Shown here: piece by piece, positions 8,914 through 42,568 of the stretch
Position numbering within the stretch: the stretch's first letter is position 1
Layout: every line of letters begins with the position of its first letter
Source of the DNA: Bacteroidota bacterium
Lineage (GTDB): Bacteria; Bacteroidota; Bacteroidia; Chitinophagales; Saprospiraceae
DNA: 42,568 nucleotides
Reading direction: 5' to 3'
Assembly (NCBI GenBank): GCA_017858735.1
Contig: JAFMBH010000025.1
Location: 1-42,568 of the forward strand
The notes under the pieces: model-generated
Told to the model about the DNA's origin: nothing
Seen by the model: the letters and a program-made list of their open reading frames with translations, nothing else
The model's database searches: none
Position numbers and translations under genes: made by a program

Positions 8914-8924
8914 TGTACCTTGCT

Positions 8925-12410: not shown

Positions 12411-12458
12411 ATCAACAATACTATTGAATAAATTGAATTTTAAGTATAAATCGAGATG

Positions 12459-12486
12459 AAGAGAATCTTGTAAATTCAATTCTCTT
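12459..12486 (-). promoter_or_regulatory. Leader inverted repeat upstream of the surface-protein operon
   Basis: AAGAGAAT (12459-12466) and ATTCTCTT (12479-12486) form perfect 8-bp arms around a 12-base loop. It lies 49-76 bases before the hydrolase ATG, so it may fold in the mRNA leader. No U-tract follows, so it is not a simple terminator. Its function is not shown by the sequence. Confidence 0.35.
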
Positions 12487-12522
12487 TCAAGGCACAAAAT
12501 AAGCCTTTACAAAAAGGTGGAC

Positions 12523-22741: not shown

Positions 22742-22745
22742 TTCT

Positions 22746-25133: not shown

Positions 25134-25139
25134 ATATAA

Positions 25140-25985: not shown

Positions 25986-26091
25986 AAAACGAGGTATTTA
26001 TGAATATTTAAAATGAAATTCGACCGAAAGTAAATAAAATAAAATTAATTTAGAGGAAATAGATTTTGAATTCGCAAAAAATTAGATTTCA
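25986..26091. promoter_or_regulatory. Divergent intergenic region between kduI and the TonB receptor gene
   Basis: A 106-base AT-rich spacer that must carry start signals for both directions. It holds a weak palindrome AAATTAATTT (26042-26051), but no clear TAnnTTTG element and no strong operator. Shared control of the two sides is possible but not shown. Confidence 0.4.
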
Positions 26092-28494
26092 ATGAATAGA
26101 AGCATTACTTTTAAAAGGATTGTTTACCTTTCTTTTATTTTATGTTTGCCATTAATCACCAATGCACAAATCAAGTTGCAAATCATAAAGGGAACGGTAA
26201 AGGATAGAACGACAAAAAATCCATTAGCGTTTGCCACAGTAAATGTGGAGAAAAGTGAAAAACAAATAGGAACAGTAACCGATGAGAATGGAAATTTCAT
26301 ATTGACAGGTGTTCCTGTTGGCAGACAAAGTATCAGATGTACTTATTTGGGATATGCTACTTTTCTTTCAGAGGAATTCATATTAACCTCTGCCAAAGAA
26401 ACGGTTATAAACATTGAACTTCAGGAGGAAATTCAGTCTCTTTCAGCGGTAGAAGTGGTAGCATCTCAAAATACCAATTCCCCGGTGAATGAATCGGCTA
26501 TGGTCAGTACAAGATCCTTTTCCGCAGAAGAAACAGAGAGAATGCCGGCAGGGGTAAATGATTTAGGCAGAATGGCCATATCCTATCCTGGGGTTACGAG
26601 AGGAGGCGATGATACAGAAAATGACATTATTATCAGAGGAAATTCTTCTTTTGGTATGCTTTGGCGATTAGAAGGAATAGATATACCTAATCCAAATCAC
26701 TTTGCCAGACCTGGAACATCGGGCGGTGGCGTTACCGTTTTTAGTGCTCAATTACTTTCAAGATCCGATTTTTCCACAGGAGGCATGTCTGCAGAATATG
26801 GCAATGCGTTGTCCGGAACATTTGATGTTCATTTTAGAAAAGGAAACATGGAAAAAAGAGAGCATCGGGTTAAAATAGGCTTATTAGGTCTTGATTTTGC
26901 CACTGAAGGTCCAATAAAATCTCAACAGGCTTCCTATCTGATAAATTATAGATATTCTACCTTAGGTTTACTTAATAAAATGGGATTCCAACTTATTGGA
27001 GAAAGAGTTTCCAATGATTTTCAGGATTTATGTTTTAATATAGCCTATCAAAGTAAAGACAAAAAAACTTTCTATACTCTATTTGGAATGGGCGGTTTAA
27101 GTGTTGAAAATTACACCCCGGTCGTAGATCCTTTAGAAAGGAAACCTGGTAATTCCAATCATTGGGAAGACAGAATACAGGGAAGTAATATGGGTGCTGC
27201 CGGCTTTACTTTAACCAGACTCATTAATAAATCTTCCTTTATAAAAGCAGTTCTCTCCGTGAACTCCAGTCATATTTTTAGACAATATGATACTTTATCA
27301 TTGAAAGATGAGCGTTATAGATATAATACCCAAAAATATCTGGAAGACAGAATTTCAACTTCGGTTACCTATCAGAAGAAATTAGGTGATGGAACAACCT
27401 GGAAGAGTGGCATCATGTTTCACCAGATTTTCTTTGATTACAATGTCGAAACTGCACCAAGAAGGTCGCTTAGTGATGTTACGCAACAAATAAACAATAG
27501 AAAAAATACAGTATTTGGCAACGGTAGCACCCAACAGGGTCAGATATATACACAAATTTCTAAAAGATTAACTGAAAAGGTTACTTTACAAACAGGATTG
27601 CATTATTTGCATTTCTTTTTAAATAATACGTCAAGTATTGAGCCAAGAGCAGCCATTTCATATAAGGTCGCCCAAAACCAAACTTTAAATTTAGCCTTTA
27701 GTAGATTAGGTAAAATGCTTCCCTTAGCTTCTTATTTTTACAGCCAGAAAGTAGGCAATGAAATTGTCCAACCCAATAAGGATCTTAGGCTAATTCAAGC
27801 AAATCATCTCATTTTAAGCTATCAAACAGTTAGCAAGTCTCAGATAAAATTTAGTTTAGAAGGATATCTTCAAACATTGGGTAAAGTTCCCGTTGAATTA
27901 AATACGGAATCATTGTATTGGATGCTGAATAATCAAGACCAATTTCCGGAATTTTCAGTAGTCAGTAAAGGCAGAGGATTAAATTATGGTCTTGATGCAT
28001 TGGTTGAAAAGTTTTTCAGCAATAAAATTTACTTTTTAGTGACCGCTTCTACTTTTCGTTCACAATATTCTCCATTTAATCAGCAATGGTACAACTCAAA
28101 ATTCAATACCAGATTTACAAGCTCCTTAACTTTTGGAAAAGAATTTACTTTTAAAAACCAATCTGTCTTACAGGGAGGTTTCAGGGTTTTATACAATGGA
28201 GGGTTCAGATATTCACCTTATGATCCCGTCCTTTCTGCAAAAACCGGGCAATATGTTCCATTGGAGGGTAAGGAATGGACTTCACAGGTAACCCCCTATT
28301 TTAGAATAGACAGCAGGATTGCCTATCGTTTTAACAAAAAAGGATTTTTCGGGAATCTTTCTCTGGATATTCAAAATGTTACTAATCACCGAAATATTTC
28401 CTTTGTTTCTTATGATGCTGTTGCCAATAAATTAAACTTCACAAGATTCGGCGGTGGATTCATACCCGTGTTAAGCTTTCAAATGGATTTTTAA
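26092..28494 (+). CDS. TonB-dependent receptor without SusD partner
   Basis: 800 residues. Signal peptide (YLSFILCLPLITNAQ), then a carboxypeptidase-regulatory-like beta domain (about 33-112; GTVKDRTTKNPLAFATV, LTGVPVGRQSIRCTYLGY), a plug domain (about 130-250; FSAEETERMPAG, DNDIIIRG-like NDIIIRGNSSFGMLWRLEG) and a C-terminal beta-barrel ending in an aromatic residue (QMDF). It lacks the N-terminal STN signalling domain seen in the SusC of the same locus and has no adjacent susD. It probably imports a ligand through the outer membrane using TonB; the substrate is unknown. Position between kduI and the sigma factor gene suggests membership in the polysaccharide locus, but it may be an independent unit. 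Confidence 0.9.
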   Translation: MNRSITFKRIVYLSFILCLPLITNAQIKLQIIKGTVKDRTTKNPLAFATVNVEKSEKQIGTVTDENGNFILTGVPVGRQSIRCTYLGYATFLSEEFILTSAKETVINIELQEEIQSLSAVEVVASQNTNSPVNESAMVSTRSFSAEETERMPAGVNDLGRMAISYPGVTRGGDDTENDIIIRGNSSFGMLWRLEGIDIPNPNHFARPGTSGGGVTVFSAQLLSRSDFSTGGMSAEYGNALSGTFDVHFRKGNMEKREHRVKIGLLGLDFATEGPIKSQQASYLINYRYSTLGLLNKMGFQLIGERVSNDFQDLCFNIAYQSKDKKTFYTLFGMGGLSVENYTPVVDPLERKPGNSNHWEDRIQGSNMGAAGFTLTRLINKSSFIKAVLSVNSSHIFRQYDTLSLKDERYRYNTQKYLEDRISTSVTYQKKLGDGTTWKSGIMFHQIFFDYNVETAPRRSLSDVTQQINNRKNTVFGNGSTQQGQIYTQISKRLTEKVTLQTGLHYLHFFLNNTSSIEPRAAISYKVAQNQTLNLAFSRLGKMLPLASYFYSQKVGNEIVQPNKDLRLIQANHLILSYQTVSKSQIKFSLEGYLQTLGKVPVELNTESLYWMLNNQDQFPEFSVVSKGRGLNYGLDALVEKFFSNKIYFLVTASTFRSQYSPFNQQWYNSKFNTRFTSSLTFGKEFTFKNQSVLQGGFRVLYNGGFRYSPYDPVLSAKTGQYVPLEGKEWTSQVTPYFRIDSRIAYRFNKKGFFGNLSLDIQNVTNHRNISFVSYDAVANKLNFTRFGGGFIPVLSFQMDF

Positions 28495-28596
28495 ACCTTC
28501 TTATATTTTAAAAATTAAAATAATTAACTTTTTCTTTCTATTTGACTAAGTAGTTGACCGGAAAAAATTGTCTCAATAAAAACTGCTTTTACCCAA

Positions 28597-29250
28597 ATGG
28601 AACAGGAAAAATCACAACGTAAAAAAACATTGGGAGAAGAAGGAATGATTGATCATCCTTCCTCTCAAGATTACATTGAAAAATTTCCACTTAGGGATGA
28701 AACAGAAGGAGAAGAATTTGATTTATTGATTCGAAAAAAATTTGAAGTAGATCCTACTGCTGCCTGTTCTTTATTATTCAGAAAGTATTATGGTGGTTTA
28801 TGTAGTCATGCGGTTAGATTTATATATTCAAAGGAAATAGCGGAGGATATCGTTAGTGACCTATTTTTTGATTTTTGGAAAAACAAAAAATATGAACTCG
28901 TTCAAAAATCTTACAGTGCCTACTTATATAAATCGGTAAGAAACAGATGCTTAAATTATTTGAAATCAAATCTAAACTTACATTCAAAAATTAGTTTAGA
29001 AGATGCAAATGACATTCAAATTGAGGAATTACCAGAAGATATTTTATATCTGGATGAATTAATAAAAAGAATAAATGATGCAGTGAATAAACTCCCCCCA
29101 ATATGTAGAAAAGTATTTTTATTGCACCGTTTTGAAGGAAAAAAACAGAAAGAAATCGCAGAAGAACTGGGCTTATCCATAAGAACCATTGAAGCACATA
29201 TTTACAAAGCGCTACAATTGTTAAAATTGGTAATATTGGAAAAAAATTAA
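28597..29250 (+). CDS. FecI-like extracytoplasmic-function sigma factor
   Basis: 217 residues, an ECF sigma-70 factor of the Bacteroidota-expanded type. Region 2 lies at about 55-125 (LLFRKYYGGLCSHAVRF, AEDIVSDLFFDFWKN) and region 4 at about 155-213 (LPPICRKVFLLHRFEGKKQ, EIAEELGLSIRTIEAHIYKA, a helix-turn-helix). The first 50 residues are an unusually charged extension; Met17 is a possible later start. It is followed 26 bases on by a FecR-type anti-sigma gene and then by susC with an STN domain, the standard layout of substrate-sensing trans-envelope control. It probably directs transcription of susC onwards. Confidence 0.93.
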   Translation: MEQEKSQRKKTLGEEGMIDHPSSQDYIEKFPLRDETEGEEFDLLIRKKFEVDPTAACSLLFRKYYGGLCSHAVRFIYSKEIAEDIVSDLFFDFWKNKKYELVQKSYSAYLYKSVRNRCLNYLKSNLNLHSKISLEDANDIQIEELPEDILYLDELIKRINDAVNKLPPICRKVFLLHRFEGKKQKEIAEELGLSIRTIEAHIYKALQLLKLVILEKN

Positions 29251-29276
29251 ATATAAGCCATTGACAAAAACATTAT

Positions 29277-30266
29277 ATGGTAACTAAAAGCATTTTATTT
29301 GAATATTTTACTGGAAATTCAAGTGTTCTTCAAAAAAGGATGATTGAAAATTGGCTTGAAAATGAGAAGAATAGAAACCTATATTACGAGTGGTTGGCTG
29401 AATGGGAGAGCGAATACCCTCAATATGTGACAGATGTTGAAAATAAACTAGACGAATATTTGTTTAAAATAGAAAATACAAATAAACGTAAATTAACTAT
29501 CACATATAATTATGAATTAAAACCATCCTTTAAAACACAACGTTTTTTAGGTTATGCCGTTGCTATTATTTTAGTCATTTCCTTGTTTGTTTCAATACTA
29601 CCCGTCAGCTATATTTTCAACAAACAAATTACCACGGATTATGGTGAAATAAAACAAGTAAGGTTACCTGATGGAAGTGAATTAACCTTATATTCAAATT
29701 CGAAACTTACATGGAATAGGTTGAATTTTGAAAACCAAAGAATTGTTTATTTAGATGGAGAGGCTAATTTTGACATCAAATACAAGCATGACGCTACAAA
29801 ATTCAAAGTAAAAACAAAAAACGAGGTAACTATCATTGTTTATGGTACTGAATTCAGATTTTTCACTAGAGAAAGAGGATCAAAAGTTGAACTTAACAAA
29901 GGGGTTATTAAATTACATTACAAGGAAGGAAAAAGCAAAAAGACCATCGCTCTTAACCCGGGTGAATCTATTTCTCTTAATAAGGAGAACAGGCTTACAG
30001 AAAGAAGTACATTTAATCCATCGAGAAACATTGAGCTTAAAAAGCATCGGTTTGTATTTGATAACACCCCTTTATCAGAACTAAAAAACCTCATTTCTGA
30101 AAATTTCGGATTAGGAATAATCATACCAGACAAAGAAATAGAGAAACTAACATTAACCGGAACTTATACCGGAAACAACTTAAATGAATTAATTAATTCA
30201 TTATCAGCTGTTACTGGCTTAAATTTTTATAGACATCATGGACGAATTTATATCGTACCTTATTAA
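29277..30266 (+). CDS. FecR-type anti-sigma factor
   Basis: 329 residues. A cytoplasmic N-terminal part (1-88, with paired Trp residues EWLAEWESEYP that usually contact the sigma factor) is followed by one membrane helix (about 89-113), a periplasmic FecR domain (about 120-215; EIKQVRLPDGSELTLYSNS, DGEANFDI) and the C-terminal DUF4974 region (about 257-329; FVFDNTPLSELKNLIS, LTLTGTYTG). The family holds its partner sigma factor inactive until the outer-membrane transducer signals ligand binding. The partner sigma gene is upstream and the transducer SusC is 22 bases downstream. Confidence 0.93.
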   Translation: MVTKSILFEYFTGNSSVLQKRMIENWLENEKNRNLYYEWLAEWESEYPQYVTDVENKLDEYLFKIENTNKRKLTITYNYELKPSFKTQRFLGYAVAIILVISLFVSILPVSYIFNKQITTDYGEIKQVRLPDGSELTLYSNSKLTWNRLNFENQRIVYLDGEANFDIKYKHDATKFKVKTKNEVTIIVYGTEFRFFTRERGSKVELNKGVIKLHYKEGKSKKTIALNPGESISLNKENRLTERSTFNPSRNIELKKHRFVFDNTPLSELKNLISENFGLGIIIPDKEIEKLTLTGTYTGNNLNELINSLSAVTGLNFYRHHGRIYIVPY

Positions 30267-30288
30267 TTTTAACTTGTAAACATTATTT

Positions 30289-33200
30289 ATGAAGAAAAAG
30301 CATTACCTCATTATCGGTTTGATACTCATCATGGGGAGTATTGATACCGGATTTGCCCAGTTATCGGCTGCGGTTCGAGATCAACCCGGAAATAATTTAA
30401 TCTCTGAATCAATCTCAAAATCATTGAAAGTTGTTCTGATTGAATTAGGGAATAAGTATGGTACCGACATTCTTTTTATGGATAAGAATCTGGCGGGAAT
30501 AAAGGTTAACGTGAATGAAATTGATTTTTCAAAACCTTTCGAGACAAATTTGAATATTCTACTGTCACAAACAGAGTTGAAGTTTAGAACGACACCGTCG
30601 GGTGGATATGTTATCACCAACAAAGACATTAAACAAAATGTGAAATCGCCCAAAGATAATGGTGGTGGAGAGTTTAAAAAAGGATTTTCGGAAATAAGCC
30701 CACTGATCCAGGAAAATGCTGGCACAATAATAAACAATAACCTTCCGTCAGTAAGTATTTCAAAACCTGAGGTGAAAGTAACAGGTACACTGACTGATGC
30801 TGAAACAGGTTCAGCCTTAATAGGTGCTACCGTACAAGTTAAAGGAACTACTAATGGGACATCAACCGATCTTGACGGAACTTATTCCATAGAAGCACCT
30901 GATGGAAATGCCGTATTAGTATTCTCTTATATTGGTTATGTCAATCAAGAGGTAGTTATTGGAAATCAATCTACTATTAATGTTAGTTTAGTTCCAGATG
31001 TACAATCATTAAATGAAGTAGTTGTGGTTGGTTATGGAGCTGTTAGAAAAACCGATTTAACGGGAGCCGTTGAACAGTTACAATCAAAAGATATTGTACG
31101 GGCAAATCCTGTACAAGCAGCTCGCGCCATTCAGGGACAAGTTGCCGGCGCAACGGTAACCAAAACCAGTAACAGACCTGGCGCAGGTTACAGTATTACC
31201 ATTAGAGGAGAGAATACAATCAATAACTCAACCCAACCTTTAGTTGTTATTGACGGATTAATGGGTGGTGATATTAACTCCATCAATCCTAATGACATCC
31301 AATCAATGGATGTATTAAAGGATGCCTCCTCTACAGCAATTTATGGAGCAAGAGGTGCCAATGGAGTAATTATCATCACTACTAAGAAAGGTTTGTCGGG
31401 TAAGCCAAAGGTAAGTTATGACAGTTATGTGGGTATGAAAGTACCAGAACACATACCACGGCTCATGAATACTGCAGAATTTTACAAAGCAACTTTTACA
31501 GACAGAGTATTAGAAGGCTCAGTAGGAGCTAAATTTACATCTGCTGAAACTGCAGCCATAAAAGAAAATCGTACTACAGATTGGGTTGATTTAATTACGG
31601 ATCCTGCTTTACAAACCAGTCAAAATTTAAGCGTTTCCGGGGGTAATGATAAGACAACCTACAGATTTTCAGGAGGTTTCCTAAATGAAAATGGAAATGT
31701 ACTTCATACTGGATTTAAGCGTTACAATCTAAACGCAGGTTTAGATAGTAAACTGGGAGAACGTTTTAAAGTTGGATTTACTTCTTATATTACTTATAGC
31801 GACCAAAACGTTGGATCTCGGGAATCTTTAAGAAATGCTTACAGAGCCAGACCAACTGGAACCATATACTATAGTGACCTAGCCAACCCATCTGAAAATG
31901 GAGATTTAGAAGTAGATGGTTTAGCAGTTTGGATGGGAATAAATGATAAGCAGGTTAATAACCCCGTTCTGGATATTGATCCCAAAAGATCTAAACTTCA
32001 AACTACCTCTGCGGTAGCCATGGCTAATGCTTATGCAGAGGTTACTTTACTTAAGGGTTTAACTTTTAGATCTTCTTTATCAGCTTCCTACACCGGCACA
32101 AGATTAGGAGATTATAGAGGACAGTGGACAAAATCACAATTGGCTAATAAACCAAGAGCCCAGGTAGATAATTCTATTCAAGGTAATTACACTATAGATA
32201 ATATTCTAAACTATAATTTTGAATCTGGAAAACATAAATTAACCTTTACGGGCTTACAGAGTGCCTTTTACCAACGAAATGAAAATTATTCCATTTTTGT
32301 AAGAGATTTACCATATAATTCTGATTGGTATGCCGTAAATACCGCTGCCACTATTGGAAGTATTGGAAGCTCCCTAATTGAAAGATCTATTCTTTCGTAT
32401 ATGGGCAGGGTAAATTACACATTTAACGAGAAATACCTTGTGACTTTAACCGGGCGTTCCGATGGAGCTTCTCAATTAGCAGAAGGCAATAAATGGGCAT
32501 TCTTCCCATCTGTTGCTGTTGGATGGAGATTAGCAGATGAAGGATTCATTAAAAATTTAAATCTTTTCTCTAACCTTAAATTAAGGGCTAGTTATGGTCA
32601 AGTGGGCAATGCGGGTGTTAATCCTTACAGCACCCAAGCCAATTTAATAAATACAGGTTATGATTTTGACGGTTCGCCTGCTTTTGGTTTCGCACCTCAG
32701 AATCTTGCAAATAAGGATTTGAGATGGGAACGAAGCACTGAGTTTAATCTTGGTATTGATTTTGGTTTTTTTAAGAATAGAATTTCTGGTACCTTAGAAT
32801 TATATAATAGAAAAACAGAGGATCTAATCCTAAATCAAAGAATACCTACTGTTTCTGGATTTACTCAGGTGATTGCCAATGTTGGTGCCATTGAAAATAA
32901 AGGGATAGAACTTACGCTGAATACAGCCAATATAGTAACCACCGATTTTTCCTGGAATACCACCTTTGCCTTCACACAAAATAAAAATAAGTTACTGGAA
33001 CTATATGGCGATGGTCAATTGGTTGACAAAGGTAATCGTTTGTTTGTTGGTTACCCGATCAGAGCTAATTTCGATTATCAATTTGACGGTATCTGGCAGA
33101 CAAGTGAAAAGGATCAGGCAGCTTCATATAAACAGGTTCCAGGCTCTGTAAAGGTAGTGGATCAAAACGGGGATGGCATTATTTCTTCTTCTAATGCTAT

Positions 33201-33696
33201 TGATGACCGTGTATATTTAGGTACTCAACTGCCTAACTGGATTTTGGGGGTAACGAATAGATTTAAATATAAAAATTTAGATTTTTCGTTTTTCACCTAT
33301 TACAGGAATGGAACTCAATATAGAAATAATACATTAGCCGGAACGTTTGGTGAAATAGGTAGCGCGAGGTATAATAAACTGGCAGGATTGGACTATTGGC
33401 GAAGTGATAACCCATCCAATACCTTTTTTGGGGTAGTTGCGGCTAATCCTTACAGAAGCGCTATTTTCTATCAAAACGCAAGTTTCCTTAGAATATCAGA
33501 TATCACCTTAGGCTATAATTTTTCACCTAAAGTTTTAAGTGCTCTCAAAATGGGTAGTGCAAGAATTTATGGACAGGTATCAAATCCCTTTGTTTTTAGC
33601 GATTTTACTGGCTTTGACCCTGAATTTAACTCTGCTATTTATCAAGATGATGTTCCATCCATGATTTATACTTTTGGTGTTAGCATCAGTTTTTAA
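30289..33696 (+). CDS. susC: SusC/RagA-family TonB-dependent glycan importer with STN signalling domain
   Basis: 1135 residues. Order: signal peptide (1-23, ending GFAQ), STN domain (about 38-112) which receives or sends the signal to FecR, carboxypeptidase-regulatory-like beta domain (about 162-237; TGTLTDAETGSALIGATVQV), SusC signature EVVVVGYGAVRKTDLTGAV (243 onward), plug (about 255-368; STAIYGARGANGVIIITTKKG) and the outer-membrane barrel to the C-terminus (FGVSISF). It forms the transport channel for oligosaccharides together with the SusD lipoprotein encoded 16 bases downstream. The STN domain makes it a transducer as well as a transporter. The symbol is by family; substrate is not shown. 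Confidence 0.95.
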   Translation: MKKKHYLIIGLILIMGSIDTGFAQLSAAVRDQPGNNLISESISKSLKVVLIELGNKYGTDILFMDKNLAGIKVNVNEIDFSKPFETNLNILLSQTELKFRTTPSGGYVITNKDIKQNVKSPKDNGGGEFKKGFSEISPLIQENAGTIINNNLPSVSISKPEVKVTGTLTDAETGSALIGATVQVKGTTNGTSTDLDGTYSIEAPDGNAVLVFSYIGYVNQEVVIGNQSTINVSLVPDVQSLNEVVVVGYGAVRKTDLTGAVEQLQSKDIVRANPVQAARAIQGQVAGATVTKTSNRPGAGYSITIRGENTINNSTQPLVVIDGLMGGDINSINPNDIQSMDVLKDASSTAIYGARGANGVIIITTKKGLSGKPKVSYDSYVGMKVPEHIPRLMNTAEFYKATFTDRVLEGSVGAKFTSAETAAIKENRTTDWVDLITDPALQTSQNLSVSGGNDKTTYRFSGGFLNENGNVLHTGFKRYNLNAGLDSKLGERFKVGFTSYITYSDQNVGSRESLRNAYRARPTGTIYYSDLANPSENGDLEVDGLAVWMGINDKQVNNPVLDIDPKRSKLQTTSAVAMANAYAEVTLLKGLTFRSSLSASYTGTRLGDYRGQWTKSQLANKPRAQVDNSIQGNYTIDNILNYNFESGKHKLTFTGLQSAFYQRNENYSIFVRDLPYNSDWYAVNTAATIGSIGSSLIERSILSYMGRVNYTFNEKYLVTLTGRSDGASQLAEGNKWAFFPSVAVGWRLADEGFIKNLNLFSNLKLRASYGQVGNAGVNPYSTQANLINTGYDFDGSPAFGFAPQNLANKDLRWERSTEFNLGIDFGFFKNRISGTLELYNRKTEDLILNQRIPTVSGFTQVIANVGAIENKGIELTLNTANIVTTDFSWNTTFAFTQNKNKLLELYGDGQLVDKGNRLFVGYPIRANFDYQFDGIWQTSEKDQAASYKQVPGSVKVVDQNGDGIISSSNAIDDRVYLGTQLPNWILGVTNRFKYKNLDFSFFTYYRNGTQYRNNTLAGTFGEIGSARYNKLAGLDYWRSDNPSNTFFGVVAANPYRSAIFYQNASFLRISDITLGYNFSPKVLSALKMGSARIYGQVSNPFVFSDFTGFDPEFNSAIYQDDVPSMIYTFGVSISF

Positions 33697-33712
33697 TCTT
33701 GACCTAAACTAA

Positions 33713-35581
33713 ATGAAAATGAAAAAAAATTATAAATTAAGATTCTCAATTCTTGCTTTTTCCCTGGTTACCCTCATACACACAGGTTGTAATGAAGATT
33801 TCCTGGTAGAAAAACCCGTAACTTCTTTAACGACGGATGTTTATTATAAAACAGCCACTGGATTTGAAGATTTAGTAAAAGCGTGCTACCCATTACTTCG
33901 AAATATTCATCAGAACAGACACCTTGTTCTTCAGGGAACAGATATATTCTCTTCTCAAGGAGGATGGAATCCATCTGCAGTTAATGGGAAAGAAAATTTA
34001 CCTGCTTTATGGGATGTTCATGATGCACGGTTTAATGCTGAAGTGGCGGAAATCAGAACACTTTGGCAGTTACTTTATGCTGAAATAGCGAGAACAAATA
34101 CCGCTATTACCCGTGCGGAAGGTATCACTACTATGGCCACAGCGCTTAAGGACACCCGGGTTTCTGAAGCAAAATTCCTACGAGCTTTATGTCTATTTTA
34201 TGCAGTTCAACAATGGGGAGATATTCCGATGCCCTTAGCAGAAATTACTACAGCCAGTAAAGATTATCCAAGAGTAGCTGCTGCTGAAGTTTACAAGCAA
34301 ATCATAACCGATTTATTGGATTGTGAGGCTAAAATACCCGTAAACGCTTCAAATTATGGGAGAATTAATAAAGGTGCTGTACAGTTTCTATTATCGAGAG
34401 TATATCTAACGAGAGGTTGGAATTTCAATAATTCTTTGGGTGGTTCCAATGCTGATTTTGATTTAGCCTTACAATACGCTGATAAAGTCATAGATGCATT
34501 TCCCTTAGCAGCAAACTACAAAGACCTGTTTCCAAAAAGAGATGATAATCCTTTAAAGCAATATACAGGGGCTCAAAATGATAAGAATCCTGAAATAATC
34601 TTTGCCGTTCAGTATAACGCAAACGTTCTAACTAATAAAACAGATGCAGCTTTTCCACAAGATGCAGCAGGTGGTAATGATTTACATTCTAAATTTGGGC
34701 CAAGTGGTGAAGGGTTTGTAGGTACAAAAGGAAGAACATCAGATTATAACCGAACTTTAAGCATTCACAATATAAATACTGCAACCTATCGTTTTTTTGA
34801 TCCAGTGAATGATACCCGCTATGCTCATAATTTTGTTAGTGTCGGTTATGCTTTGAATGCCGTCAAAGATTACAGAGTTTTACCTTTATCAAATCCAAAC
34901 CTAAGAGTTAGTTTTAATTCAGGTGACACCGTTTTATTATGCAGACCTTGGAATAATCCTGCTACAACGAAAGAAGAAAGAGGCATTGATTTAGGTGGAA
35001 CCAAAAAATATGCGGTAGTTAATACCGATGAGTACGGAGGTGGGTACCCTATTGATAATTCAGGATTAAATATCCAGGCACCATTAATGTGGAAATTCTG
35101 GCAACCCGGTATTCCTTATGGTGATGCTTTTGGAACATTCAATGAAGCAATATTTAGATCGGCAGAGGCCTATTTAATTGCCGCAGAAGCAATAGTAAAG
35201 GGAGCCAAAGGTGGCAAACTAGGTGGCGCTGATGTGTATTATAACAGAGTTTTAGATCGTGCCCTAGGTACAAAAAAAGGAACTGATCCAAAATGTGCAG
35301 CTTCTCCTGAAAACCAAAAATCTCTGGCCACAGCTTCATATCGTGCAACAGCAGCAAATATTTCCATTGATCTAATTCTTGATGAGAGAGCAAGAGAACT
35401 AATGGGTGAATATAGCCGCTGGTTTGACCTGAAAAGAACGGGAAAATTGGTAGAGCGTATAAAAAAATACAATCCTTGGGTTAAAGGACAGTCGATCTCA
35501 GACAAACATAATTTGAGACCCATTCCACAAAGTGAAATTGATTTATCTTTTCCATCGATCAAGCAAAATCCTGGATATTAA
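33713..35581 (+). CDS. susD: SusD/RagB-family glycan-binding outer-membrane lipoprotein
   Basis: 622 residues. A hydrophobic N-terminal signal ends in LIHTGC, with Cys26 the probable lipidation site; the lipobox is somewhat unusual because His is at -3. The sequence after it (NEDFLVEKPVTSLTTDVYY) is a typical SusD start. TPR-like helices follow (SEAKFLRALCLFYAVQQWGD, NKGAVQFLLSRVYLTRG, FRSAEAYLIAAEAIVKGAK) and the C-terminal ILDERARELMGEYSRWFDLKRTG is a strong family signature. It caps the SusC channel and captures glycan at the cell surface. It is followed by a strong terminator. Confidence 0.95.
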   Translation: MKMKKNYKLRFSILAFSLVTLIHTGCNEDFLVEKPVTSLTTDVYYKTATGFEDLVKACYPLLRNIHQNRHLVLQGTDIFSSQGGWNPSAVNGKENLPALWDVHDARFNAEVAEIRTLWQLLYAEIARTNTAITRAEGITTMATALKDTRVSEAKFLRALCLFYAVQQWGDIPMPLAEITTASKDYPRVAAAEVYKQIITDLLDCEAKIPVNASNYGRINKGAVQFLLSRVYLTRGWNFNNSLGGSNADFDLALQYADKVIDAFPLAANYKDLFPKRDDNPLKQYTGAQNDKNPEIIFAVQYNANVLTNKTDAAFPQDAAGGNDLHSKFGPSGEGFVGTKGRTSDYNRTLSIHNINTATYRFFDPVNDTRYAHNFVSVGYALNAVKDYRVLPLSNPNLRVSFNSGDTVLLCRPWNNPATTKEERGIDLGGTKKYAVVNTDEYGGGYPIDNSGLNIQAPLMWKFWQPGIPYGDAFGTFNEAIFRSAEAYLIAAEAIVKGAKGGKLGGADVYYNRVLDRALGTKKGTDPKCAASPENQKSLATASYRATAANISIDLILDERARELMGEYSRWFDLKRTGKLVERIKKYNPWVKGQSISDKHNLRPIPQSEIDLSFPSIKQNPGY

Positions 35582-35612
35582 TAGCTAAAGACTATTTTTT
35601 ACTTGTATATTT

Positions 35613-35645
35613 AGAGAGGAAGAAAAAATCTTCCTCTCTTTTTTA
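35613..35645 (+). terminator. Rho-independent terminator after susD
   Basis: AGAGAGGAAGA (35613-35623), a five-A loop, and TCTTCCTCTCT (35629-35639) form a perfect 11-bp stem followed by TTTTT. It ends the sigma/FecR/susC/susD transcript, or limits read-through into the lyase-like and GH92 genes that start 17 bases later. Confidence 0.9.
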
Positions 35646-35661
35646 GCCTAAAATTTTCCCT

Positions 35662-37359
35662 ATGAATCGTAGAACATTTGTTAATACCAGCCTTTTAGCT
35701 GTTTCAGCATTACCTTTTGGTAACCTTGATTTTTCAAAAGTAAGCAAACCAGCATGGATCTTGGAATGGATAAAAATTCAAGATAAACAGCTTCCTAATT
35801 ATCAAAAATATAAAGTTGTTCAAAAGGAAAACAAATATTTTGGTGGATACATGGATGACGCTGAACTGCCAAATCCGCATTCAACGGCTGGTTTTATTGG
35901 GAAGGCGTGTATGCTTTGGACTTGCGAGGAATCTGTGTTTTACCAACAACCTTCATTAGTACCTGACATTGAGTTGGCGCTGATAAGTTTGCTAAAAATG
36001 CAACACGCTGATGGCACCATAGATCTTCTTTCTACCAATTTTCACTCCACACCGGATACTGCATTTGTACTTGAAAATATTATTCCAGCTTATATTTTCA
36101 TAAAGGAAAGTAATCTGAAGAATACAGAAAAAATACTCAGTCTATTAAAGCAATTCATTTTAAATGCGGCTGAAGCCTTAAGCATTGGAGGAATCCATAC
36201 TCCAAACCACCGATGGGTTGTATGTGCTTCATTAACCAGAATTAATGAATTATTTCCCAATGAAAAATACATAAACAGAATAAATCAATGGCTAGCGGAA
36301 CATATTGATCTCGATCCTGATGGGCAATACACCGAAAAAAGTACCAATGGCTATTCACCCATTGTAAACAGGTCACTCATTACTATGGCAGTCGGTTTGA
36401 ATAAACCAGCGTTACTTGATGCCGTCAAGAAAAATCTAATCATGACTTTTTACTATGTTCATCCTAATGGTGAAGTAGTCACAGAGGCATCAAACAGGCA
36501 AGACAAAGGGACGATTGGAAACATGCATAAATATTACCATGTATATCGATATATGGCCCTTAAATTTCAAGACGGTACCATGGCATCCATGTGCCGATTG
36601 ATTGAAAAAACGAGTACACCAGAACAATTAGCTGGATTTTTGGATATATTTCTTGAGGATCCAGGCCTTTGGCAGGAACTTCCTCCTTCAAAGCCATTGC
36701 CCACCAATTATTCCAGGGAATTTCCCTATTCTGGTGTAGTGCGTATCAGACGTGAAAATTGGGATTGCACCTTGCTTTCAAATAATACCAGTTGGTTAAC
36801 TTTCCATAAAGGGAATGCGGTGCTGCAAGCCATGAGAATAGCTACCTCATTTTTTGGAAAGGGACAATTTCAAACAGCTAAAATAAAGGCTGTTGATAAA
36901 GATTGGGTATTACAAAATTCATTAGAAGGACCTTATTACCAACCTTTAGATGCGGACAAGATATCGCCGGACGGTGATTTAGATAAAATGCCAAGGACCT
37001 TACGTTTACAAAGCGAGGTACAAAAATTAAACTATTTAGTTAAAGTGACCGAGCTTCCAACCGGCGTTGAGGTTGATTTTGATATTTCAGGAACAGATGG
37101 CGTTCCGGTTTCTCTTGAACTTATATTCAGACAGGGAGGCATTTTTTCTGGCGTTTCTCCCATACCAAATAAAAAAGATGCTTATTTATTTCCTTCCTCT
37201 ATTGGCAGTTATACGGTTGGAAACGATCAAATCACCTTTTCACCTGGAATGATTTTACACAAAGGTGTCCAGCTTCGTGGTGCATTACCAGCTATGGAAT
37301 CACCTACGGTTTATTTGACTGGCATAACCCCTTTCAAACATAAAATAACCCTTTCCTAG
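35662..37359 (+). CDS. Putative polysaccharide lyase, heparinase-like toroid plus beta-sandwich
   Basis: 565 residues. The N-terminus (NRRTFVNTSLLAVSALPFG) carries a twin-arginine-like export signal. Residues about 30-330 look like an (alpha/alpha) toroid; about 350-565 are beta-rich. Candidate catalytic groups resemble those of heparinase-II/III-type lyases: Asn182-His183-Arg184 in HTPNHRWVVCAS, Tyr223 and Tyr231 in the segment around STNGYSPIVNR, and His289/Tyr291-Tyr292/His293 in NMHKYYHVYRY. Such lyases cut uronate-containing glycans by beta-elimination, and the products are what kduI and kduD nearby process. I cannot place it in a numbered family. It could instead be a related toroid glycoside hydrolase. 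It follows a terminator, with the GH92 gene 34 bases on. Confidence 0.6.
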   Translation: MNRRTFVNTSLLAVSALPFGNLDFSKVSKPAWILEWIKIQDKQLPNYQKYKVVQKENKYFGGYMDDAELPNPHSTAGFIGKACMLWTCEESVFYQQPSLVPDIELALISLLKMQHADGTIDLLSTNFHSTPDTAFVLENIIPAYIFIKESNLKNTEKILSLLKQFILNAAEALSIGGIHTPNHRWVVCASLTRINELFPNEKYINRINQWLAEHIDLDPDGQYTEKSTNGYSPIVNRSLITMAVGLNKPALLDAVKKNLIMTFYYVHPNGEVVTEASNRQDKGTIGNMHKYYHVYRYMALKFQDGTMASMCRLIEKTSTPEQLAGFLDIFLEDPGLWQELPPSKPLPTNYSREFPYSGVVRIRRENWDCTLLSNNTSWLTFHKGNAVLQAMRIATSFFGKGQFQTAKIKAVDKDWVLQNSLEGPYYQPLDADKISPDGDLDKMPRTLRLQSEVQKLNYLVKVTELPTGVEVDFDISGTDGVPVSLELIFRQGGIFSGVSPIPNKKDAYLFPSSIGSYTVGNDQITFSPGMILHKGVQLRGALPAMESPTVYLTGITPFKHKITLS

Positions 37360-37393
37360 TAAAATCAATTTTTCAATAAATTTTCCTATTAAC

Positions 37394-39769
37394 ATGAAAA
37401 ACACCCTATTTTTTGTCCTTGTGATACAAACTATTCTGGGAAATATTTATCTGTCCGGTCAGGCTAATAAAATGCAACCGGTTGATTTGGTATATCCATT
37501 AACGGATGCTGCTAACTCAAGATGGTTCTTTTTTAATTCTGCAACCAGACCTTTTGGTATGGTCAATTTAAGTCCTGATAATGCCATTGATGCCGATTGG
37601 AATGCAGGATACAGATATGAAAAGGATAGTATCAAATGTTTCAGCCACATACACGGCTGGCAATTATCCGGTATTCCTGTTTTACCTACCACAGGGGAAT
37701 TTAAAGGACATTTAGGTTCCGATACCTACGGATCTGTTTTTTCTCATAATAAAGAAACTATAAAGGCAGGATATCATCAGGTTTACCTGGAAACCTACAA
37801 AATAAAGGCTGAACTAACTTCAACAACCCGCGTAGGATTCCATAAATACACTTTTCCAGCAGCTGAAAAGAGTCAAATTTTATTTGATTTTTCTACTTTT
37901 CTCGGTCCATCAGATACCCAATATGGATTAATCAGGAAGATTTCCAATACAGAAATTGAAGGCTATGCTGTCATGGCTCCTACCATTCGACGACCAAAAA
38001 CAGTGACCGTTTTTTTTGTTGCTCAATTTGATAAACCATTTAAATCGTTAAGAACTTGGCAATTGGGTAAATTATTGGGAGAAAGTGACCTCATTGAAGG
38101 AGAGAAAATAGGTGGTTATGTTGATTTTTCCACAACATCTGGTGACATAAGGAAAATGAAAGTGGCTATTTCTTATGTCAGTGAAGCGCAAGCACGATTG
38201 AACCTAGAAAATGAGCTAAACCATTGGGATTTTGAAAAAGTAGAGGCGGAAAGCAGAACAGATTGGAACAACTGGTTAAGCAGAATAACTATTGAAGGAG
38301 GTACTGAAACAGAACAAACGCGCTTTTATACCGACTTATGGCATGCATTGCAAGGGAGGCGGATTATTTCCGATGTAAATGGGAAATATTCCGATATGAC
38401 TGGACCCGTTCGGATCATTAGACAAATACCTTTGGATGCTAATGGGAAACCAGCTTACAATCATCATAATTCAGACTCCTTTTGGGGTGCTCAATGGACT
38501 TTAAATACGCTTTGGCATTTGGTTTATCCGGAAGTAACTGAATCTTTTGTTAACTCAATGATAAAAATGTACGAGGATGGCGGACTTATACCCAGAGGCC
38601 CCGCAGGTGGAAATTATACTTATGTTATGACAGGTGCAGCGACAACGCCATTCATTGTCAGCGCCTATCTAAAAGGAATAAAGGGCTTTGACATTGAAAA
38701 AGGATATGAAGGATTAAGGAAAAATCATTTCCAGGGTGGTATGATGAGTAAAATAGGCTATGAACACAACACCTTTAAAGGGGGAGGTATTGAGTATTAT
38801 ATGGAAAAGGGCTTTGTGCCCCACCCTTTAAGTAAAATTAAATATGGCTTTCATCAAGATGGATCCACTCAAACACTGGAATATGCTTATCAGGATTATG
38901 CCTTAGCCCAGTTTGCCAAAAAATTGGGAAAAACAGAAGATTATCAACTTTTCATGAAAAGAGCCACTTACTATAAAAATATTTGGAATGCAGAAATAGG
39001 TTGGATGTGGAATCGGACAATAGATGGAAAATGGGGAGAGCCCGTTGATATTCTCAGATACGATAATGGATGGGAGGAAGGAAATGCAGCGCAATATACC
39101 TGGTTTGTTCCACATGATGTACAGGGATTAATCTCTTTAATGGGAGGTAAAGATAAATTTAACGCCAAATTAAATACCTCCTTTCTTGAAGCAGAAAAAC
39201 ATGATTTTACTTCAGGGAAATCACACGATAAAGAGTTACTTGAAAAACTAAGAAAGGTTTACATAAATTATGGTAATCAACCAAGTATTCAAACTGCCTA
39301 TTTGTTTAACTATTCAGGGGCTCCCTGGTTAACTCAATACTGGTCCAGAAAGGTCGTTGAAAAAGTTTATAGTGGTTTATCACCTTATTACGGTTACAGC
39401 GGAGATGAAGATCAAGGATTGATGGGCAGTTTAGCCGTTTTAATGAAATCGGGTATTTTTTCCACCAATGGCGGCACTTCCGAGAGCCCATTTTATGAAA
39501 TTAGCAGTCCTGTATTCAATAAAATAACTTTTCATTTACATTCAGATTATTATAAGGGAAAAAGTTTTACCATTGAGGCTCCAAATAATAGCGCAAAGAA
39601 TTTTTATATTCAATCTGCCACCTTAAATGATAAACCATTGGATAAACCATGGATTTTACATGAAACGGTAACAAATGGCGGAAAATTAATTCTTAAAATG
39701 GGCAGCACACCGAATAAAACATGGGGAATTAAACCAGAACAAGCCCCCCCTTCCATGACAAGTTTTTAA
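37394..39769 (+). CDS. GH92-family glycosidase with non-canonical active site
   Basis: 791 residues, the family length, with a signal peptide (LFFVLVIQTILGNIYLSGQ). The two-domain GH92 layout is visible: N-terminal beta-sandwich (about 28-280; TRPFGMVNLSPD, CFSHIHGWQLSG) and catalytic toroid (about 300-690; GGLIPRGPAGG, YLFNYSGAPWLTQYW, YYGYSGDEDQG). GH92 enzymes are calcium-dependent exo-alpha-mannosidases. The base aspartates are kept (Asp671 and Asp673 in DEDQG), but the usual acid Glu of the GNEP motif is Gln629 (GNQPS), and the usual LWDT motif reads FWGAQW at about 363-368. It may therefore act on substrates with a good leaving group such as mannose-phosphate, or on another sugar. It converges on a regulator gene with an 8-base gap. 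Confidence 0.85.
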   Translation: MKNTLFFVLVIQTILGNIYLSGQANKMQPVDLVYPLTDAANSRWFFFNSATRPFGMVNLSPDNAIDADWNAGYRYEKDSIKCFSHIHGWQLSGIPVLPTTGEFKGHLGSDTYGSVFSHNKETIKAGYHQVYLETYKIKAELTSTTRVGFHKYTFPAAEKSQILFDFSTFLGPSDTQYGLIRKISNTEIEGYAVMAPTIRRPKTVTVFFVAQFDKPFKSLRTWQLGKLLGESDLIEGEKIGGYVDFSTTSGDIRKMKVAISYVSEAQARLNLENELNHWDFEKVEAESRTDWNNWLSRITIEGGTETEQTRFYTDLWHALQGRRIISDVNGKYSDMTGPVRIIRQIPLDANGKPAYNHHNSDSFWGAQWTLNTLWHLVYPEVTESFVNSMIKMYEDGGLIPRGPAGGNYTYVMTGAATTPFIVSAYLKGIKGFDIEKGYEGLRKNHFQGGMMSKIGYEHNTFKGGGIEYYMEKGFVPHPLSKIKYGFHQDGSTQTLEYAYQDYALAQFAKKLGKTEDYQLFMKRATYYKNIWNAEIGWMWNRTIDGKWGEPVDILRYDNGWEEGNAAQYTWFVPHDVQGLISLMGGKDKFNAKLNTSFLEAEKHDFTSGKSHDKELLEKLRKVYINYGNQPSIQTAYLFNYSGAPWLTQYWSRKVVEKVYSGLSPYYGYSGDEDQGLMGSLAVLMKSGIFSTNGGTSESPFYEISSPVFNKITFHLHSDYYKGKSFTIEAPNNSAKNFYIQSATLNDKPLDKPWILHETVTNGGKLILKMGSTPNKTWGIKPEQAPPSMTSF

Positions 39770-39777
39770 CAAATGCC

Positions 39778-40401
39778 TTAGTTGGAATCTTTATTTGATA
39801 AAAAGAGAGCTATGAGTTCACCTTTACTATTTATCTCTAATTTACGATAAATTTTTTGAAGATGAAATCTTACGCCATCAATAGAGATTCCAACTTTATC
39901 GGCTATTAATTTATAGCTTAATCCCGAACTTAATTCCTTAGCTATGTTTATCTCTTTCTCAGTTAAAACTTCCTCAATGATGCTTTTCTTTTGAAAATTT
40001 TTGATCATTAGGGGTAGTAAAGTCATACTTACACTATTTCCTAATGTGAACATGGCTTCAACGTGATGAGCAAATTCCTGTGCGGTTTCACTTTTAAGGC
40101 AAAAGCCATTTGCCCCAGCTTTAAATGTTTCAAAAATCCTGAAAGAATTTTCCGGCTCTGTGATTACTAAAATATTAATCCAAGAAAATTTTCTCCTTAT
40201 CTCAGATAATGGATTATAGTTATCCCCTAATGATGGAAGTAAAGTAGTAATAACCAAGGTGTTATTTTTATCATTTTGCAAAGAAGTATCATCTAAAGAA
40301 AATAATAATGTATATTCCGGATAACCCGATAATACTACCTTCATTTTTTTCTCCAGGGATTGATCATCCAGCAAAAGAATAATATATTTATCCCTTTCCA
40401 T
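39778..40401 (-). CDS. LuxR-type response regulator with degenerate receiver (copy A)
   Basis: 207 residues. The N-terminal part (1-120) is a receiver-like domain with acidic pair LLDDQS near the start, a conserved switch Thr (NILVITEP) and Lys (GANGFCLKSE). The phospho-acceptor position, normally Asp in a VLMDxxMP context, reads LVITTLLP, so a Thr replaces it. The C-terminus (about 145-200; LTEKEINIAKELSSGLSYKLIADKVGIS) is a NarL/LuxR helix-turn-helix. Without the Asp it probably does not work by ordinary phosphotransfer. Its start overlaps the end of the membrane AraC-type gene by 14 bases, implying coupled translation. It is a near-duplicate of the gene at 41665-42294. No histidine kinase is seen nearby. 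Confidence 0.85.
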   Translation of the reverse strand: MERDKYIILLLDDQSLEKKMKVVLSGYPEYTLLFSLDDTSLQNDKNNTLVITTLLPSLGDNYNPLSEIRRKFSWINILVITEPENSFRIFETFKAGANGFCLKSETAQEFAHHVEAMFTLGNSVSMTLLPLMIKNFQKKSIIEEVLTEKEINIAKELSSGLSYKLIADKVGISIDGVRFHLQKIYRKLEINSKGELIALFLSNKDSN

Positions 40402-41518
40402 TATTAATATAATTTTTTGGAAAACAACTCATAATCGCAAAGAAAGTATTGTTAAAAGTTTTAACATTTTTAAATCCAGCATTTTCTGCCAGTTTTACTA
40501 TGTTATTGATTTCTAAAAATCCATCTTCTAATAATGTAATTGCATAAGAAATCCTTAAATTAGTTATGTAAGCATCATAATTTAAACCCTTTATACTAGT
40601 TAAATGAAAAAGAATCAGGTCAGATTCAATGCCTGTTTCTTTGATTAAATCTTTAATGGTAAAATCAGTTGATAAATAGGCTTTTGATGTATTTTCCCAA
40701 TGTACAAGTTTCTCCTCTATGACTAAAGGGTCTATTGATTTGATTCTATTATCTAAAAGGGACGCCTCATTTAAAGTTGCCTTTGCAAGTAAAGGATAAC
40801 CTGTCATGAGCGAAGGATATAAAGCGAGAAAAATAAAGAAAAGGAAAGAGATTATGATAGAAAATAAAGTGGTCCAGTTTACCAAGATACTTTTATCTAA
40901 TTCTATGAATCCAATGATTAAATAAGATAAATTTATGATTACCCAAGAGCTCAAAAAATAAAAATAAAAATTATTTATTTTTTTCTTGTTAATATCCTCT
41001 TTGTTGATTTGTTGAAAATTCTTGTAAATTTTCAGCAAATATAACCCCGAAATAAGACCCAAAGAATGACGGATTATTCTCATTAAACTAACCCAAAAAT
41101 AACCCATAATTACCTCCTTATCCCATCCTTTTACAATAAAATCACTGATGTTTATTAATTGCTCTGGTTTAGTTAAAAAGATATGAAAATAAAGGAAGTT
41201 GAATATTCCCAGCAAGATTGGAATAAATAGCGGAAAATGAAATATATGAAAGATATATTTACCCTTCATTAAATAAATAAAAAAAACAAACATCACTAAA
41301 GGGGTGGCATTAAGAAGGATAGCAGGCCAAAGCGTGAAATAGAAGTATAAATTTACATCCCCTAAATTTCTAAGAAGCACCTGAACATTACTAAAGAAAA
41401 AGGAGGTATATAGGAAAATTAGAAAAATTTTAAAGGCTCCTTTAGGAAACTTTATTATCATCCAAATTAATGAGATAATTAGGATAATTAGATTAAAATA
41501 TATAAAGATTTTTGTCAA
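40388..41518 (-). CDS. Seven-helix membrane protein with C-terminal AraC-type DNA-binding domain (copy A)
   Basis: 376 residues. Seven hydrophobic helices can be drawn at about 4-22, 30-49, 57-84, 93-115, 137-162, 183-204 and 215-236. A soluble C-terminal domain at about 280-372 has the two helix-turn-helix units of AraC regulators (IKDLIKETGIESDLILFHLT; NNIVKLAENAGFKNVKTFNN). It is thus a membrane-embedded DNA-binding protein, presumably sensing a membrane or external signal. The start is a TTG at 41518; the first ATG (Met20) would cut off the first helix, so TTG is preferred. It overlaps and probably drives the response-regulator gene downstream. Ligand and target are not evident. Confidence 0.8.
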   Translation of the reverse strand: MTKIFIYFNLIILIISLIWMIIKFPKGAFKIFLIFLYTSFFFSNVQVLLRNLGDVNLYFYFTLWPAILLNATPLVMFVFFIYLMKGKYIFHIFHFPLFIPILLGIFNFLYFHIFLTKPEQLINISDFIVKGWDKEVIMGYFWVSLMRIIRHSLGLISGLYLLKIYKNFQQINKEDINKKKINNFYFYFLSSWVIINLSYLIIGFIELDKSILVNWTTLFSIIISFLFFIFLALYPSLMTGYPLLAKATLNEASLLDNRIKSIDPLVIEEKLVHWENTSKAYLSTDFTIKDLIKETGIESDLILFHLTSIKGLNYDAYITNLRISYAITLLEDGFLEINNIVKLAENAGFKNVKTFNNTFFAIMSCFPKNYINNGKG

Positions 41519-41664
41519 AACATTTAGATTTTAACAAAAGTACAAAACAGGATTAGATAGTGCATAAGTATTTTCTTAAAAATTCTATAAAAATAAAGAA
41601 TACACCAAATAATTAGGTGGAATATAAGAAAGGCTTAAGGGAAGCGGACTAATTTAATTGCATT

Positions 41665-42294
41665 TTAAGACTCGTTGGAATCTTTATTTGATAAAAAGAG
41701 GGCCATTAGTTCACCTTTACTATTTATCTCCAATTTACGGTAAATTTTTTGCAAGTGAAATCTTACGCCATCAATAGAGATTCCAATTCTATCGGCAATC
41801 ATTTTATAACTTAATCCAACACTTAATTCTTTGGCTATGTTAATTTCTTTTTCAGTTAAAACTTCCTCAACGATACTTTTCTTTTGAAAATTTTTGATCA
41901 TTAAGGGGAGTAAAGACATACTTACACAGTTTCCTAATTTGAACATTGTTTCAACATGATGAGTAAATTCCTTTGCGCTTTCACTTTTCAGACAAAAACC
42001 ATTTGCCCCAGCTTTAAATGTTTCAAAAATCCTGAAAGAATTTTCCGGCTCTGTGATAACTAAAATATTTATCCATGAAAATTTTCTCCTTATCTCAGAT
42101 AACGGATTATAGTTATCCCCTAAGGATGGAAGTAAAGTAGTGATAACCAGTGTATTATTTTTATCATTTTGCAAAGAAGTATCATCTAAAGAGAATAATA
42201 ACTTATATTCCGGAAAGCCCGATAATACTTCCTTCATTTTTTTCTCCAAAACAGAATCATCCAATAAAAGTATAATATTCTTATTTCCGTCCAT
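41665..42294 (-). CDS. LuxR-type response regulator with degenerate receiver (copy B)
   Basis: 209 residues, a tandem copy of the gene at 39778-40401. By eye about 22 of 207 positions differ, most near the ends; residues 32-103 are identical. Like copy A it has the acidic pair (LLDDSV), the switch Thr and Lys (CLKSES) and an intact LuxR helix-turn-helix, but Thr instead of Asp at the phosphorylation position (VITTLLP). The C-terminus is two residues longer. Its start shares one base with the stop of the upstream AraC-type gene. The copy A unit begins 146 bases downstream. Confidence 0.85.
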   Translation of the reverse strand: MDGNKNIILLLDDSVLEKKMKEVLSGFPEYKLLFSLDDTSLQNDKNNTLVITTLLPSLGDNYNPLSEIRRKFSWINILVITEPENSFRIFETFKAGANGFCLKSESAKEFTHHVETMFKLGNCVSMSLLPLMIKNFQKKSIVEEVLTEKEINIAKELSVGLSYKMIADRIGISIDGVRFHLQKIYRKLEINSKGELMALFLSNKDSNES

Positions 42295-42568
42295 TATTTA
42301 TTATAATTTTCGGGTAAACAATTCATAATAGCAAAAAAGGTACTATTGAAAACCTTGACATTTTTAAATCCAGCATTTTCTGCCAGTTTTACCAGATTAT
42401 TGTTTTCTAAAAAGCCCTCTTCTATCAATGAAATTGCATAAGAAATTCTTAAATTAGTAATGTAAGCATTATAATTTAAGCCTTTTATGCTAGTTAAATG
42501 AAAAAAGATGACATCAGATTCAATGCCTGTTTCTTTTATTAAATCATTTATGCTAAAATCTGTTGAAA
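42294..42568 (-). CDS. Membrane AraC-type regulator, C-terminal part only (copy B, cut by window edge)
   Basis: The visible 90 residues plus stop correspond to the AraC DNA-binding domain of the gene at 40388-41518 (IKETGIES, HLTSIKGLNYNAYITNLRIS, LVKLAENAGFKNVKVFNSTF). Most positions match copy A; the C-terminus is shorter, ending CLPENYNK. The membrane part must lie to the right of the window. The stop TAA overlaps the next ATG by one base. Confidence 0.85.
   Translation of the reverse strand, partial: STDFSINDLIKETGIESDVIFFHLTSIKGLNYNAYITNLRISYAISLIEEGFLENNNLVKLAENAGFKNVKVFNSTFFAIMNCLPENYNK

Follow-up and report, generated by a model that had tools for sequence, protein, structure and literature searches.

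How a response regulator that lacks the site of its own phosphorylation can be controlled is the question raised by the right end of contig JAFMBH010000025.1 from a member of the Saprospiraceae (Bacteroidota; assembly GCA_017858735.1). This entire contig of 42568 bases, hereafter the window, is contig C49 of the draft genome G000 (4.23 Mb, 222 contigs). The minus strand of this end carries two tandem copies of a unit in which the gene for a membrane protein with an AraC-type domain overlaps the gene for a LuxR-type regulator with a pseudo-receiver. That this overlapping pair exists and is duplicated is well supported. The features of the locus are the following:

40388..41518, minus strand: AraC1, a 376-residue membrane protein, probably with seven helices, ending in an AraC-type domain; an open reading frame (ORF) with a TTG start, recognised by HTH_18 (25.6 bits, below the cut-off of 33.6), an AlphaFold2 (AF2) model and a 356-column profile match to standalone seven-helix (7TM) AraC proteins.
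40820..41515, minus strand: predicted membrane region of AraC1 (residues 2-233), from AF2 helices with weak predicted local distance difference test (pLDDT) values, hydropathy and loop charges.
40397..40729, minus strand: AraC-type C-terminal domain of AraC1 (residues 264-374) with an eroded signature, from the model and its fold match.
39778..40401, minus strand: RR1, a 207-residue NarL/LuxR-type regulator without phospho-acceptor Asp, overlapping AraC1 by 14 bases.
40027..40401, minus strand: pseudo-receiver of RR1 (residues 1-125), from alignments and the model; Response_reg gives 20.3 bits, below its cut-off of 30.2.
39787..39975, minus strand: LuxR-type (GerE) DNA-binding domain of RR1 (residues 143-205); GerE gives 44.4 bits, with a cut-off of 23.5.
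41519..41664, minus strand: gap of 146 bases between RR2 and AraC1, a possible promoter region of the second unit.
41665..42294, minus strand: RR2, the second regulator copy, an ORF of 209 residues with 89% identity to RR1.
42294..42566, minus strand: AraC2 (partial), its last 90 codons, overlapping RR2 by 1 base; HTH_18 gives 28.7 bits, under the cut-off.

An earlier note, made from the letters of the window, had described two consecutive copies of a coupled two-gene unit, and both were found where it placed them. The repeated segments are alike at 88% over 300 bases and at 85% over 269 bases, with a spacing of 1893-1894; the comparison itself gave no chance estimate, and the lengths of these matches make a chance origin implausible. 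AraC2 is interrupted by the contig end, and its first 299 codons stand at the end of contig C72, which shares an exact overlap of 55 bases with the end of the window. Followed to the right in this way, as the note had proposed, the locus continues into a co-directed ROK-family gene, and the joined order reads ROK, AraC2, RR2, AraC1, RR1 and then a convergent GH92 gene. In genome G001 the gene order is identical (neighbours recognised by eye) and the tandem lies unbroken on a single contig, so the tandem does not depend on the join between the two contigs of G000. A third, more distant pair is found in G000 at the end of contig C166.

The regulator is of the NarL type along its full length, according to both sequence (VraR, 6e-20; NarL, 1.5e-19) and fold (LiaR, 7.6e-11, with a pLDDT of 85 for the model of RR1). 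Receiver and GerE domains are combined in one protein, in which GerE passes its cut-off, as it does in 17/17 regulators of the family, while Response_reg stays below (20.3 and 20.5 bits). As the note had claimed for the window copies, the phospho-acceptor Asp is absent, and it is so in all 17 family regulators. In the window this region reads VITTLLP; all seven A-type regulators (the type of the window) have T,T at residues 52-53, and the ten of the B type have T followed by N (five), Q (four) or K (one). Two alignments place the Asp site at residue 53 and another at 52, so that the claim is limited to the absence of the Asp. Elsewhere in the active site, T81 and K103 do not vary and F100 hardly does (14 full-length regulator rows), and the acidic positions read Asp-Glu in the B type and Leu-Asp, then Asp, in the A type by alignment. 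At position T+1, the family has Glu or His, while receivers mostly carry Ala or Gly there (PMC12632262). The abstract of that review defines a pseudo-receiver as a receiver fold without a residue needed for phosphotransfer, and the family regulators, with their receiver fold and missing Asp, answer to this definition. Among the regulators closest to the family outside the genus, 20/21 have the Asp; these come from 21 of 23 loci, since L024 and L037, both of which show the Asp motif, were dropped by the ORF filter. At L023 (3-2115), from a different genus of this bacterial family, a NarL-type regulator that has Asn in place of the Asp overlaps a multi-helix ORF resembling a histidine kinase.

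The pairing itself is strict. Across the seven genomes sampled for the genus (G000-G006), 17/17 family regulators, two of them split over two contigs, overlap a same-strand membrane gene by 1-14 bases, and the two genes are probably translationally coupled. Contig ends truncate four pairs, of which G000 has two and G005 and G006 one each. The A type comprises seven copies (two each in G000, G001 and G006, one in G005) and the B type ten (three in G001, two each in G002 and G006, one each in G000, G003 and G004), with up to five pairs in a genome (G001). Since each of the seven draft genomes consists of 160-430 contigs, which break inside the pair repeats, these copy numbers are minima.

Beyond the genus, the picture changes, and the co-occurrence across Bacteroidota that the note had proposed to look for was, as far as searched, found within the genus only. 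The regulator profile gives 8e-92 or better for full-length family members and 2e-34 for the next regulators; the membrane profile gives 6e-104 or better for near-full-length members, followed by 2e-17 for a generic protein within the genus and 3e-14 outside. Profile searches of 148 genomes (its own, six of the genus and 141 others) did not find the pair beyond the genus. Among 395 genomes of the class (its own included), the own genome alone matched at 1e-35 and 1e-17, and among 395 of the phylum (own included) the pair was not found in any other genome. Seven other genomes of the phylum hold regulators at 1e-36 to 1e-38, and the three of these inspected have the Asp motif and stand beside ORFs that resemble kinases by eye. 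In none of 55 related loci outside the genus, with flanks of mostly ~1.5 kb, does a membrane-type ORF occur together with a regulator-type one at E 0.01; applied to the pair loci at 1e-10, these profiles recover 17 of each, as expected, because most of them are profile rows. A contig scan with two short peptide patterns, which can miss distant relatives, returned 31 loci: 11 of this genus, 6 with generic regulators and 14 matching mainly in the GerE region. A wide distribution in Bacteroidota was consequently rejected, as the searches placed the pair in one genus.

The membrane protein is homologous over 356 columns, membrane part included, to the standalone 7-helix AraC proteins (hhalign probability 99.8). 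The AF2 model of AraC1 shows eight helices before residue 233, seven of which are counted as spanning, with 118-130 taken as a short outer helix. A plain hydropathy plot reveals six segments clearly but not helix 5, so that the seventh helix of the note depends on the model. Confidence is weak in the membrane part (pLDDT 45-75 per ten residues) and higher over 261-370 (67-92), where the AraC-type domain lies. Loop charges agree with an N-out/C-in topology, and the membrane part has no Pfam or NCBIfam match. A kinship of the model to animal G-protein-coupled receptors was considered and left unused, since the fold match is not significant (E 0.17 and up). The best fold matches of the AraC domain are AraC-type DNA-binding domains (YesN, AraT) at E 0.007-0.009 and probability 1.00, none reaching E 0.001 or below, and HTH_18 is matched by 15/15 membrane proteins at E up to 0.1.

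The signature of that domain is altered in the family. The comparison covers 15 of 18 family membrane genes (the split AraC2, the C166 fragment and a broken gene on contig C89 were left out) and 21 of 23 relative loci (L076 and L084 were dropped as not multi-helix). Ser of the first helix-turn-helix (HTH1) occurs in 20/21 standalone relatives and in 0/15 family members, where Leu, Ile or Asn is found instead, with an adjoining Phe or Tyr. HTH1 Asn occurs in 21/21 relatives against 6/15, and the first Lys of the FKK motif in 20/21 relatives against 0/6 of the A type. HTH2 Pro is present in 21/21 relatives and 6/6 A-type proteins and in 0/9 of the B type, while the GF of the signature is kept in all 15. 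The last 105 residues carry a net charge of -8 to 0 in the 15 family members, whereas the corresponding range for the 21 relatives is -4 to +9, with a mean of +3. The altered signature positions are presumably ones that face DNA. DNA binding by the membrane protein, which the note had taken for granted, is therefore doubtful as judged from its residues.

The two partners also differ in how far they have diverged. Mean identity in the B type is 40-52% for the membrane helices plus outer loop 2, 63% for the AraC domain, 69% for the receiver and 82% for the LuxR domain; the A type varies little from part to part (69-87% for the membrane part, then 82%, 85% and 91%). The two window copies share 80% in the membrane protein versus 89% in the regulator, and copies a and b of G001 share 53% versus 91%. 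Among nine pairs of the B type, the distances of membrane protein and regulator are correlated (0.88), a value reached in 13 of 5000 permutations. Ratios of nonsynonymous to synonymous substitution (dN/dS) point to purifying selection on every domain of both proteins: the LuxR domain shows 0.02-0.15, the receiver 0-0.27, the AraC domain 0.09-0.37 and the membrane part 0.15-0.50 (13 comparisons, hand-picked from the 91 that 14 pairs allow), with a few synonymous distances near saturation. The sole A-type membrane gene of G005 (L052, 247-1377) looks recombinant: it is 97-100% identical to copy 2 of G000 in its first part and nearly 100% to copy 1 after that, with the switch point inside a 24-base identical stretch (nt 502-525). 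Since this stretch is shorter than the 55-base assembly overlaps, real recombination is favoured, although misassembly may also have produced it. The diversifying inputs that the note had suggested are thus backed in the B type, where the membrane half diverges faster, and by this recombinant, whereas the A type shows little difference and includes an orthologue pair that runs the other way.

According to these data, the reading preferred here, with a probability of roughly 45%, is that of a kinase-free two-protein unit in which the AraC domain of a membrane sensor docks the pseudo-receiver LuxR protein and controls it by contact. A signal would be sensed by the membrane helices; the cytosolic AraC-type domain, its usual signature residues lost, would dock the pseudo-receiver, and direct contact would hold or release it; the released regulator, whose LuxR domain is intact, may then control adjacent genes for surface proteins or glycan use, and possibly its own operon. 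The whole would amount to a membrane one-component regulator whose DNA-binding job has passed to a diffusible partner. The predicted contact between the AraC-type domain and the pseudo-receiver would be the weakest step. A wider scenario can be offered more tentatively: a 7-helix receptor may signal by contact to a diffusible transcription factor, its AraC domain having become a docking domain and a response regulator without phosphorylation site its partner, with the receptor half multiplied and recombined and the output half changed less, so that many inputs could feed one kind of output, the control of surface proteins.

Several observations weigh against control by contact. In the B type, HTH1 Asn is retained in 5/9 membrane proteins and the first FKK position is Lys or Arg in 8/9, so that the AraC domain may still bind DNA; the C-terminal charge ranges of family and relatives overlap, and purifying selection on this domain fits DNA binding equally well. 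The orthologues A.G000.1 and A.G001.1 reverse the trend (membrane protein 92% versus regulator 86%), and partner distances in the A type are uncorrelated (-0.09, 5 pairs; 62 of 120 permutations), which may reflect regulator exchange between copies. Several pair contigs measure just 4-6 kb, so that a kinase may sit past their ends, and the failure to find the pair outside the genus speaks against deep conservation. As a separate observation, in the A type (window 39778-42294) the regulator of one copy resembles other copies as much as, or more than, its orthologue, which suggests exchange between copies.

The rival that survives best, though rather unlikely, is that both proteins bind DNA as co-activators at one promoter, with the specificity of the AraC domain altered. 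Its model is provided by the ToxR/TcpP-like membrane regulators, which co-activate at a shared promoter. In its favour, the model of the AraC domain is fairly confident and the best fold matches are DNA-binding domains, the B type mostly keeps basic FKK residues, and the domain is under purifying selection. Against co-activation stand the loss of HTH1 Ser throughout, the loss of FKK in the A type and a C-terminal net charge that is zero or negative in 15/15.

Less probable still is that the regulator is constitutively active and that the membrane protein sets its amount through control of the operon, with no contact between the two. One of the model classes in the review PMC12632262 has the level of a permanently active pseudo-receiver changed, and overlapping genes imply common transcription. 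This proposal leaves the pairing of regulator and membrane partner in 17/17 cases unexplained, and it works only if the AraC domain binds DNA.

An unlinked histidine kinase, or a response regulator acting as heterodimer partner, could drive the regulator, leaving the membrane protein as a separate input, but this is improbable. Its attraction lies in the retained active-site Thr and Lys and in the 11-16 HATPase_c matches that each genome holds elsewhere, not all of which need be kinases. The Asp is missing in every family regulator and present in nearly all of the nearest ones outside the genus, and no HATPase_c match exists on C49, C72, C166 or any other pair contig of the seven genomes. A kinase beside the locus was rejected for this reason, in keeping with the note, which had seen none; where the contigs are short (4-6 kb), a kinase may lie immediately beyond them. 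On the whole, the kinase-free coupled pair of the note held up. Decaying two-component remnants multiplied by assembly error, an idea nourished by draft contigs that break inside the repeats and by a B-type membrane gene of G005 (contig C89; L132, 1800-2705) with an in-frame stop, no regulator found and adjoining insertion-sequence-like ORFs, are largely refuted by open frames, by dN/dS of 0.50 at most in every domain and by the unbroken tandem of G001.

The individual parts of the pair belong to known kinds, while the fixed pair itself did not turn up in searches of the open-licence PubMed Central (PMC) literature. In the same family and order there are standalone 7-helix AraC proteins, homologous to the membrane protein along its length; they keep the usual AraC signature, unlike the pair members (21 compared), and have no pair-type regulator within ~1.5 kb on each side (23 AraC-centred loci). 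VraR, LiaR and NarL match the pair regulator in full-length sequence and fold, but the latter has neither the phospho-acceptor Asp nor a linked kinase. ToxR, TcpP and CadC join a membrane sensor to a DNA-binding fold with no kinase, as the membrane protein of the pair probably does, its AraC fold being present and its DNA binding doubtful; the pair differs in its multi-helix membrane part, its AraC fold and its separate LuxR output protein. With the pseudo-receiver regulators WhiI, NblR and CmrT (PMC12632262), the common ground is a receiver fold without a residue needed for phosphotransfer, and the difference is that the pair regulator is always encoded overlapping one membrane protein. No such pair is named in sections 4, 7 and 19 of that review, nor did a term search of it return one.

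With regard to the surroundings, the GH92 gene closes a cluster with an ECF (extracytoplasmic function) sigma factor, FecR and SusC/SusD-type genes. The stretch 24369-39769 (KduI-like, short-chain dehydrogenase, TonB-plug receptor, ECF/FecR, SusC/SusD, GH92) looks like a glycan-use cluster that ends at the pair. In G000, G001 and G006, TTG is the start codon of the copy 1 membrane genes and ATG that of the copy 2 genes (window 41518; L015, 17087). The upstream regions, aligned and inspected by eye, show no convincing shared operator. Among the ten B pairs, six lie directly behind a co-directed ORF of at least 483 codons, two behind another pair, one behind a 262-codon ORF at a distance and one at a contig end. 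Five large neighbours of B pairs were scanned: four have dockerin and type 9 secretion tail matches (two tail matches under cut-off), two of the five a PKD-like domain, and the fifth, not directly upstream, Fib_succ_major. Two very large proteins of the window (4537-12497), one PKD/Ig-like and one with Fib_succ_major, resemble those that accompany B-type pairs at other loci of the genus. Proteins of 565 residues (35662-37359) and 555 residues (22692-24359) have no Pfam match at 1e-5.

For this family of regulators, each pseudo-receiver found has a fixed membrane partner, which provides a concrete and testable partner for a pseudo-receiver. The up to five diverged copies per genome, together with one recombinant, constitute natural variation, and the pair represents a case in which a DNA-binding domain may have turned into a protein-binding one.

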